DNA of 64,000 nucleotides from Symbiobacterium thermophilum IAM 14863. GTDB lineage: Bacteria; Bacillota; Sulfobacillia; Symbiobacteriales; Symbiobacteriaceae. Position 1 is the stretch's first letter. The number at the start of each line of letters is the position of its first letter. This document shows, in pieces, positions 575 through 5,662 of the stretch. Under the pieces are notes generated by a model that worked only from the letters and a program-made list of their open reading frames with translations, ran no database searches and was not told the DNA's origin. The DNA is taken from NCBI RefSeq assembly GCF_000009905.1, contig NC_006177.1:3172595-3236594 (forward strand), written 5' to 3'. The position numbers and the translations under genes are program-made.

Positions 575-1582
575 TCACGACATCGGCCGCCGGACCGCCC
601 TCCAGAGGCCGAGCTGTCCGAGGTCGGGCCGCCAGTCCACCGCATAGGTATAACCGGCATCCGACAAGTCGACGCGCCGGCCGTCCACGGCTGCTTCGAG
701 GTCGGTCCCCTGAACGTAAGACCGGCCCTCGATCTCCGCCACCGAAAGCGGTTCGGTGCGGGTGCCGCCGGCCAGCACCAGGGAGACGGAGCCGTCCTCC
801 TGCCAGGCGATCTCGCCCAGGACGGCGAGCGCCTCCACCGAGACCCGGTAGCCCCCGGCCCCATCGGCCAGCACGGCCGCCGGCAGGTCCAGCAGGGCAG
901 GGGCGGCCGCATCCTCGGGGCCGGCGCCGTACCAGACCGCCACGGCCAGGTCCGGTGCGCCGGCCGCAGCGTGGGCGTAACCGGTCACCAGCGGCTCACC
1001 GCCCTCCAGGTAACTGACCAGCACCTCATCATCGCCCTCCAGCGCCAGCCGCCCGGCGCTGTCCCTGCGGATCACCTGGACCTGGAAGGAAAAGGCCTCA
1101 TCCGTCTCCTGCGTGTCGACCAGCCGCACCCACACCTGCTCGGCATCCGCCGGGCGGAACGGGGCCAGCTGTTCCTGCAGGGCCGGGGCGACGGCGAGCG
1201 GCACCGTCAGTTCGGCGCCATGCACCCAGAGCGCAGCGCGCTGGGCCGCCTCCCAGGCGGAGATCCCCCCGACCTCGGCCCGCAGGTCGGCGGGCAGATC
1301 GGACAGCGCCGGCGCCGGGACGCGGAGCGAGAAGCTGCCGTCGTCCGTGACACGGTCCGGAACGGGGGCCGCGGCGGGTGTGTCGTCGGGGGAGACGTGT
1401 CCGCCGTCGGTGGCGGGACCGGGCGATCCGGTCTCAACGGAGCCCGCGGAACCGGGCGCCGCGTCGCCGGCCTGCTCGGCGGCGACCGGCGGATCGCCGG
1501 GCCCGGGCGATGAGGCAGGGCTGCCGGTTCATCCGGCCAGCAGGGCCGCCGCGGCGGCGAGGGCCATCCATCTTCTGTTCAC
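575..1582 (-). pseudogene. Putative lipoprotein with in-frame UGA at the lipobox cysteine
   Basis: A GTG start at 1582 is preceded by a strong ribosome site (GAGGTGA). It encodes MNRRWMALAAAAALLAG, a classic lipoprotein signal sequence. The next codon, at 1531-1529, is TGA, exactly where the lipobox (LLAG-C) needs cysteine. The same frame stays open for another 317 codons to the stop at 575. After the TGA comes a Gly/Pro/Ser/Asp-rich linker and then a soluble domain ending in ...LGLWRAVRRPMS. I do not recognise the mature domain; its tail, with paired short beta-like segments, could be a copper-amine-oxidase-like or GerMN-like fold, but this is not supported. With conventional decoding the product ends after 17 residues, or translation restarts internally (ATG at 1225). 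Possible causes are a one-base TGC/TGT-to-TGA mutation, a sequencing error or recoding. Confidence 0.75.
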
Positions 1583-1714
1583 GCGAGGTCACCTCAAAGG
1601 TTGATTATTTGGTTCGTTGATGATCTGTGTTCAGTATACATGACCTCGCGGCCGCGGCGGGGATCCGGGCCGAGCTTGCGCCCGTCCAAATGCTGGTAAC
1701 CGGTGAAGCCGCCC

Positions 1715-3198: not shown

Positions 3199-3281
3199 AG
3201 CCATGCGTCGGGTGCCGCCCACACCCCTCAGGCGGGTCGCCCCATAGAATGGGCTAGACCCCCGAGGAAGGTGTGACGCCG

Positions 3282-3782
3282 ATGTCCCATTTCTATCCAC
3301 CGCCGATGCGCGGCCCCGCGTGGTATCCCCCGGCCGGGTTCGGCGCACCGGCCTGGTACCCGTACACGGCGGCATACGCCCTGTACCCGCCTGCGGCCAT
3401 GGCGCCCGCCGGCTGGTACGCCGTGGCCGACCGGCCCCCTGCGCCTGACCCTGCGCCGGCCGAGTGGATGGCGCTCGTCGAGCCCGCCCTGAACAGCGTG
3501 ATCCCCGCCATCCACGGCCTGCTGGAGATCTCCGGCCTACTGCTCCGCCACCTGCCCGCCGCCTTCGACATGACGGGATCCGGGCCCGAGGAGCCTGCAC
3601 GGGACGATCCCCTGACCATGCGCACGGGGCTTGGGCACATAGGGCTGTTCGGCCCGGCCGAACCGGACGTGATCGATATCGAGGCCGCCCGTTCCGACGC
3701 GGCGCTGCCGCCGCCGGAAGGCAACGGTCGCGACGGCGCCGGCGCCGCTGACCTGAGCGGAGACCAGACCGAGCAGGCATGA
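3282..3782 (+). CDS. Hypothetical Tyr/Pro-rich protein
   Basis: This 166-residue protein is of unrecognised family. The first 50 residues are rich in Pro, Tyr, Trp and Ala (repeated PAWYP-like pieces). A predicted amphipathic segment (residues about 60-95, ...LNSVIPAIHGLLEISGLLLRHLP) follows, then an acidic, disordered tail. The ATG at 3282 is about 10 bases after GAGGAAGG; a GTG at 3273 is too close to it. The composition resembles spore-coat or surface-associated proteins of spore formers, but that is a guess. The stop codon overlaps by one base the 3' exon of the group II intron on the other strand. Confidence 0.7.
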   Translation: MSHFYPPPMRGPAWYPPAGFGAPAWYPYTAAYALYPPAAMAPAGWYAVADRPPAPDPAPAEWMALVEPALNSVIPAIHGLLEISGLLLRHLPAAFDMTGSGPEEPARDDPLTMRTGLGHIGLFGPAEPDVIDIEAARSDAALPPPEGNGRDGAGAADLSGDQTEQA

Positions 3783-5662
3783 ATCGAGTAGGAGGGGGCG
3801 GCTAGCCCCCGTCCTCTCACACCACCGGACATGCGGGTCCGCATCCGGCGGTTCGCCAGGATTGACGAGTCGCTTCATAGCATTCGGTCAGGCTTATCAG
3901 CCCCTGGGCACGCCAGTAGGCGTCGCCCAGGGCGCTGTTTAGTGGGCCACCTGCCATCCGCCACGGGCCTTTGCGGCTGTTGGCGAGTTGGTGGACTACC
4001 CATTCGGGCAAACCGAGGGCGCGCAACTCCCGAAAGCGCGTGCGTACACGCTTCCACTGCTTCCATACGCATGCTCGCAGCCGACGCTTCAGCCATCCTT
4101 CGAGTCTTTCAAAGGCTGACCTGGCATCGGAGAGCGCATAGTACCCAACCCAGCCCCGCAAGTAAGCATTCAGGCGCCGGATTCGGTCCTCCATGCTCTG
4201 GCTGCGGTTGCGGTCCGTCAGCGTGCGGAGCTTGTCCTTCACGCGCTTCAGGCTCTTCGGGGCCAGCCGGATGCGCACTCCCCGGTGCTTGTAGAAACTA
4301 AACCCGAGGAACTGCCGCTTCCACGGCCGGTCCACTGCGCTCTTCTCCTCGTTGACCTTCAGCCGTAACCGCTCCTGCAGGAAGTGGCGCACGCTCCTGT
4401 AGACCCGTTCTCCCGCCCGCTTGCTGCGGACGTAGATGTTGCAGTCATCGGCGTACCGGACGAAGTGGTGCCCGCGGCGCTCCAGCTCCTTGTCGAGGTC
4501 ATCCAGCAGGATGTTCGCCAGCAGCGGGCTCAGCGGACCGCCCTGCGGCGTCCCTTCCTCCGTCGCCACGACTACCCCGTTCAGCATGACCCCAGCCTGT
4601 AAGTACCGCCGGATCAGCCGCAGCACACGCTTATCCGTTACCCGCCGCGCCACGCGGGCCATCAGCACGTCGTGGTTGACCCGGTCGAAGAACTTCTCCA
4701 GGTCCATGTCCACGACCCAGTCGTACCCTTCCTCCACGTACTGACGTGCCTTCCTGACCGCATCATGACCCCGCCGCCCCGGCCGAAAGCCGTAGCTGGA
4801 TTCGGAGAATGTCGGGTCAAAGATCGGCGTCAGTACTTGCAGGAGTGCCTGTTGGATCAGGCGGTCCATCACGGTGGGAATCCCCAGCATCCGCTTGCCG
4901 CCGCCCGGTTTCGGGATTTCGACCCGGCGGACTGGCTGCGGTCTGTAGGTCCCCTGGAGCAGTCCCTCACGGATGCGGCTCCACTCCACGCGAATCTGGT
5001 CCCGCAGCCGTTCGGTGGGGACACCGTCCACGCCGGGAGCGCCTCCGTTCCGCTCCACCCGTTTCAGGGCGGCCAGCATGTTCTCCCTGGCCACCACCTG
5101 CTCCATCAGGTTGCTGTGCTCCCCGCGGGGTAACGTTCCGTCTTGTGCCGGCTGCCCACTCCGCCCTCTCGCCGTCCCTTGCGGCTTCACCGCTACCTCC
5201 GGCGAGCAGGTCCCGTTCGGGGTCTTCTGCGTTTGTCGCGGGCTGCTCGAACGCAACGGGTTCACCCCTTTCCTGACGTTCGGCCCTTCCCGGTTGGGGC
5301 GTCCCCCTGCCGGTACTATGGCCTTTGCTGACTTCTGCCGGTTCAGCTGCGTCTCCCGACGCAGGTTACCAGCGTTGCTGGCGTTCCCGGCAGATCTCCC
5401 CGGGTAAGAACGCTGACCTTCACCCCGCACCCGCCCCATCTACCGCACCGCCCTTTGGCAGCTTCGGGTTTTGCTGTGTTCGGCCAGCTCACCCGAGCGG
5501 CACAGCCTCCTATGGGGTTCGTGTTCCTCGGGTCGTGGCTTTGCCTCGGGCTTCCTTCAGATTCCGCCTCACGACGGACACCCTTGCCTTTGGCTAACGG
5601 GCTGGTGCTGCCTCGCCCGTAGCGGACTTTCACCGCCAAGTCAGCGCCCATGCCGGGCACAC
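3783..5662 (-). mobile_element. Group II intron, complete, inserted after a terminator
   Basis: The 5' end reads GTGTGCCCGGC at 5662, directly after the T-run of the terminator at 5665-5697. Known domain I pieces follow (GGCGGTGAAAGTCCGC, then GGCAAGGGTGTCC). At the 3' end, domain V (about 3852-3820, a GCCGGATGCGG/CCGCATGTCCGG hairpin) is followed by a domain VI hairpin with GAGAGGA opposite TCCT-A-CTC. The bulged A at 3789 is the expected branch point, six bases before the AT intron end at 3783. Total length is 1880 bp with one maturase ORF. Placement right after an intrinsic terminator and the absence of an HNH endonuclease domain are hallmarks of bacterial class C (IIC) introns. The exact ends are inferred from motif position. 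Confidence 0.85.
3817..5106 (-). CDS. ltrA: Group II intron reverse transcriptase/maturase
   Basis: This 429-residue intron-encoded protein starts at the ATG before EQVVARENMLAALKRV. RT blocks are in order: the N-terminal GAPGVDGVP, PKPGGGKRMLGIPTVMDRLIQQAL, SYGFRPGRRGHDAV, DMDLEKFFDRVNHD, GTPQGGPLSPLLANI, and the catalytic FVRYADD (residues about 230-236). The thumb/X (maturase) domain is a GIIM-type region with LNAYLRGWVGYY. No C-terminal HNH endonuclease is present, so mobility should use existing nicks or replication forks. It assists splicing of its own RNA and reverse transcription into target DNA. The frame is open upstream to 5439, but those codons lie in the folded 5' intron RNA and look non-coding. 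No frameshift is seen, so the intron may be active. Confidence 0.93.
   Translation of the reverse strand: MEQVVARENMLAALKRVERNGGAPGVDGVPTERLRDQIRVEWSRIREGLLQGTYRPQPVRRVEIPKPGGGKRMLGIPTVMDRLIQQALLQVLTPIFDPTFSESSYGFRPGRRGHDAVRKARQYVEEGYDWVVDMDLEKFFDRVNHDVLMARVARRVTDKRVLRLIRRYLQAGVMLNGVVVATEEGTPQGGPLSPLLANILLDDLDKELERRGHHFVRYADDCNIYVRSKRAGERVYRSVRHFLQERLRLKVNEEKSAVDRPWKRQFLGFSFYKHRGVRIRLAPKSLKRVKDKLRTLTDRNRSQSMEDRIRRLNAYLRGWVGYYALSDARSAFERLEGWLKRRLRACVWKQWKRVRTRFRELRALGLPEWVVHQLANSRKGPWRMAGGPLNSALGDAYWRAQGLISLTECYEATRQSWRTAGCGPACPVV

Follow-up and report, generated by a model that had tools for sequence, protein, structure and literature searches.

The genome of Symbiobacterium thermophilum IAM 14863 contains a putative lipoprotein gene in which the codon expected to specify the lipobox cysteine is TGA, and the question raised by this locus is whether this UGA is a genuine stop, an error of the reference sequence or a codon that is read as cysteine or selenocysteine. 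The gene lies on the minus strand of the window, the 64,000-nucleotide stretch of contig NC_006177.1 analyzed here, and starts with a GTG codon (1582-1580) that is preceded, at a distance of 6 nucleotides, by the Shine-Dalgarno sequence GAGGTGA (1589-1595), which is identical in the ortholog described below. The encoded signal sequence, VNRRWMALAAAAALLAG (1532-1582), which is recognizable from the sequence and from comparison with the ortholog, consists of a basic n-region, a hydrophobic core and a lipobox of the form [LVI][ASTVI][GAS]; at the +1 position of this lipobox, where a cysteine is expected, the window has the in-frame TGA (1529-1531). The frame then continues for 317 codons (578-1528), encoding a linker rich in proline, alanine, glycine and serine followed by a domain, and is closed by a terminal TGA (575-577). 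The layout put forward in the original prediction, namely a start at GTG 1582 with a good ribosome site and a signal sequence, an in-frame TGA directly after that sequence at the lipobox cysteine position and an open frame of 317 codons with a linker preceding a domain, was thus borne out in each of these respects, and the coding status of the frame was confirmed by the ortholog.

Among the 41 genomes of the same class that were searched, one, from a congener, encodes an ortholog of this gene (positions 1447-2451 of locus L002), and the gene order ychF, lipoprotein gene, yceI is common to the window and the ortholog. The signal sequence of the ortholog is LNRWIALAAAAALLAGC and its codon opposite the UGA is TGC: the bases of the two genes are identical through CTGCTGGCCGGATG, after which the ortholog has C and the window has A. 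Downstream of this position, the 317 residues show 57 % identity to the ortholog, with a dN/dS of 0.45 for the lipoprotein gene compared with 0.19 for the neighboring yceI. The TGC codon of the ortholog, the conserved gene order and the level of protein identity argue that this is a genuine lipoprotein gene from which the UGA is a one-base departure; this comparison shows both the lipobox and the 317-codon coding sequence to be real, with the UGA in the place of the lipobox cysteine. Inspection of this codon in related strains had been proposed beforehand, and the single congener supplied the sense codon; homologs without a lipobox, which had been named as the observation that would speak against the prediction, were not encountered, given that the sole homolog carries one.

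Further searches added little to the characterization of the protein. No paralog of the lipoprotein gene was detected in the single-contig genome of 3,566,135 bp, and two scans of wider genome contigs yielded no relatives beyond the congener. The 317-codon continuation had no match in Pfam or NCBIfam, its AlphaFold model was poor (mean pLDDT of 39) with no Foldseek hit to PDB at E <= 0.001, and Rfam searches gave chance-level matches only. Elsewhere on the minus strand of the window, we noticed by eye a 540-residue ORF (3817-5439) that resembles the reverse transcriptase/maturase of group II introns and contains the motif FVRYADD; it is directly adjoined by a Pro/Tyr-rich ORF (3273-3782).

The position of the stop calls for an estimate of how often chance would place it there. 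The gene offers 79 single-base routes to a stop codon, distributed over 63 codons, and one of these strikes the lipobox cysteine. A random nonsense change would therefore hit the cysteine codon in about 1 case in 80, which is unusual but not extraordinary, since the position was picked post hoc. The original prediction considered the chance of such a coincidence to be small; the route count supports this in numerical terms, but the resulting figure is modest for a coincidence noticed after the fact.

An alternative reading is that the UGA is translated, with SelB directing the insertion of selenocysteine, or of cysteine loaded on tRNA-Sec, and the inserted residue serving as the lipid anchor. 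The search of the genome for selenocysteine genes suggested in the original prediction recovered the complete set of components sought, that is, selA (612 bits), selB (379 bits), selD, which itself contains a UGA, and a tRNA-Sec with the anticodon UCA, and 12 selenoproteins have been published for Symbiobacterium thermophilum (PMC1794560, Table 3). Because the organism decodes selenocysteine, recoding at the lipobox UGA had to be tested. Moreover, selenoproteins are classically recognized by a UGA that lies within an intact frame and is paired with a cysteine in the ortholog, although in this case the cysteine is provided by one homolog only whereas the Sargasso Sea survey required at least two Cys homologs (PMC1088965). 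A reading of UGA as a general sense codon is ruled out because this very frame is terminated by a second TGA (575-577) and because a dedicated tRNA uses UGA as its selenocysteine codon.

Recoding was tested by looking for a SECIS hairpin downstream of the UGA. The bSECIS consensus specifies an apical loop of 3-9 nucleotides with a G in the first two positions, located 16-37 nucleotides from the UGA, and a folding energy of at most -7.5 kcal/mol (PMC13188914). The lipoprotein UGA conforms to this generic consensus. Since 70-85 % of random coding codons of the window do so as well, however, conformity means nothing here. The generic rule is unselective in a genome that is both GC-rich and selenoprotein-rich, and the organism's own selenoprotein genes offer a usable local yardstick. 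We located eight known selenocysteine codons, three of FdhA and one each of GrdA, GrdB, SelD, a SelW-like protein and a peroxiredoxin (on loci L021, L026, L027, L031, L032, L037 and L041). All eight are followed, 17-22 nucleotides downstream, by an uninterrupted stem of 4 bp or more with a loop of 3-5 nucleotides starting N(0-1)G[G/U]; this rule was drawn from six of the elements, and its spacing and loop pattern were then widened for SelW and the peroxiredoxin, so it is partly fitted to the set that it describes. Random coding codons satisfy it in 9.6 % of cases, the lipoprotein UGA does not, and the cysteine codon of the ortholog has no such hairpin either.

The closest structure that can be drawn at the lipoprotein UGA, AUCGCC-CGGGCCC-GGCGAU (1493-1511, minus strand), has a 6-bp stem and a GG-containing loop, CGGGCCC, but this loop of 7 nucleotides and its spacing of 23 nucleotides from the UGA both exceed the values found for the eight known elements. 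In folds computed from the UGA onward, the look-alike reaches an ensemble probability of 0.003-0.03, whereas seven of the known elements reach at least 0.38, the weak eighth being that of FdhA3. Thus, the lipoprotein gene resembles the selenoprotein genes of the same genome in having an in-frame UGA opposite a cysteine of the homolog, in an organism with the selenocysteine machinery, but differs from them in the lack of a matching SECIS hairpin and in the role of the residue, which is the lipid-attachment cysteine rather than a redox or catalytic one. An acylation site that is not redox-active is an implausible place for selenocysteine, and a full-text literature search found no paper describing selenocysteine at a lipobox. 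Atypical SECIS elements do exist (PMC13188914), and it is mainly for this reason, together with the abundance of selenoproteins in the organism, that we leave some room for insertion of selenocysteine at this position, while considering it highly improbable.

Nor does the genome give any sign of recurrent use of UGA at lipoboxes, as far as lipoboxes of the form [LV][LV][AST][AG] are concerned. A genome-wide search for the DNA pattern encoding this form followed by TGA produced seven matches, of which one is lipoprotein-like; only this match has both a signal-sequence-like start ahead of the TGA and a conserved frame after it. That a single match out of seven is lipoprotein-like points to a single event rather than a system.

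We therefore favor, as the likely explanation, an ordinary lipoprotein gene that carries a one-base nonsense change at the lipobox cysteine codon, with the UGA acting as a normal stop. The syntenic congener has the sense codon TGC at the site of the lesion, within identical flanking bases. Like other nonsense alleles of bacterial lipoprotein genes, this one has one in-frame stop, whereas the promoter region, the ribosome site and the downstream frame are intact, as is the ortholog in the congener; what sets it apart is that the stop falls exactly on the lipobox cysteine and not on an arbitrary codon. This positional coincidence, the pairing of UGA with cysteine in a selenoprotein-rich organism and the possibility of drawing a loose bSECIS constitute the evidence against a nonsense allele. 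Lgt and signal peptidase II require the lipobox cysteine, and this requirement, along with the comparison of the two genomes, suggests that TGC is the ancestral state. The conserved downstream frame and the lack of any further lesion are what would be expected of a single change that occurred recently, and the change indeed appears to be recent.

Under a nonsense change, the ribosome would synthesize a 17-residue signal-sequence peptide and terminate at the UGA. The next in-frame start candidates are the GTG triplets at codons 120 and 127, so that, in all probability, no secreted, lipid-anchored protein would be produced. Restart at these codons was rejected as too late for the linker and for secretion, and restart at the ATG that overlaps the stop (1532-1530, ATGA) was likewise rejected because it opens an ORF of just 32 residues in another frame.

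The same observations are compatible with a base error in the reference, in which case the living strain would have a cysteine codon and an ordinary lipoprotein. One base is the sole anomaly of a locus in which the ribosome site, the signal sequence, the frame and the synteny are intact and match the ortholog, and the dN/dS value reveals purifying selection downstream of the TGA. Nevertheless, just about 2.6 % of random substitutions in the gene (79 of about 3,000) would create a stop, and few such errors are to be expected in a finished Sanger-era genome. By our estimate, stop-creating errors should be less numerous than true nonsense alleles in a genome of 3.5 Mb, and for this reason we favor a true mutation and regard a reference error as rather unlikely. 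Of the three options offered in the original prediction, loss of function and a base-call error accordingly stand, whereas the reading of UGA as cysteine or selenocysteine is disfavored by the lack of a matching SECIS hairpin.

The nucleotide sequence around the start of the gene is itself conserved. Between the two species, signal codons 2-17 show zero synonymous differences over about 13 synonymous sites, as compared with a pS of 0.46 downstream. The region comprising the leader and the signal-coding sequence (1529-1675, minus strand) has a strong predicted fold in both species, with z-scores relative to shuffled sequences of -3.7 in the window and -2.9 for the counterpart in the ortholog (positions 1371-1497 of L002). 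In the predicted fold, the upstream leader pairs with the ribosome site and the signal codons, and the region includes an inverted repeat, GCGAGGTCA/TGACCTCGC (1582-1591 and 1641-1650), that is conserved in both species. The leader may hide the ribosome site, provided that the transcription start is sufficiently far upstream. The sigma-70-like TGAACA-18-AATAAT (1604-1633; 1 found compared with 0.1 expected in a scan based on the consensus alone), which is the only match resembling a promoter, lies inside the folded structure, which argues against a leader of this kind.

Such conservation, and the exact placement of the stop, could be taken to mean that the truncation is functional, with the short ORF yielding a free hydrophobic peptide derived from the signal sequence, similar to the plasmid-encoded inhibitors of enterococci, or a leader peptide. 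Enterococcal pheromones correspond to the 7-8 residues that immediately precede the lipobox cysteine, and the listed inhibitor peptides show no following cysteine (PMC7117660, Table 2); the stop in the window sits exactly where the inhibitor peptides end. The likeness to iAD1 and the other pheromone inhibitors extends to a short hydrophobic peptide that terminates at the would-be lipobox cysteine, but the inhibitors are products of dedicated short genes, whereas the gene in the window runs into a conserved frame of 317 codons and has no known receptor for a peptide product. This downstream frame retains its coding character, and the nucleotide conservation is the same in the ortholog with its intact cysteine and hence is not tied to the stop. 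Because the conserved leader and its fold are shared with the intact ortholog, they have no bearing on the stop, and we consider a functional truncation very improbable.

If the stop is real, the preferred nonsense change leaves Symbiobacterium thermophilum with one more broken lipoprotein gene; otherwise, there is one database base to correct. Should the UGA be decoded here after all, by way of an atypical SECIS element, this would be the first bacterial surface protein with a lipid anchor that depends on selenium, and selenium supply would control its anchoring, which would be new.
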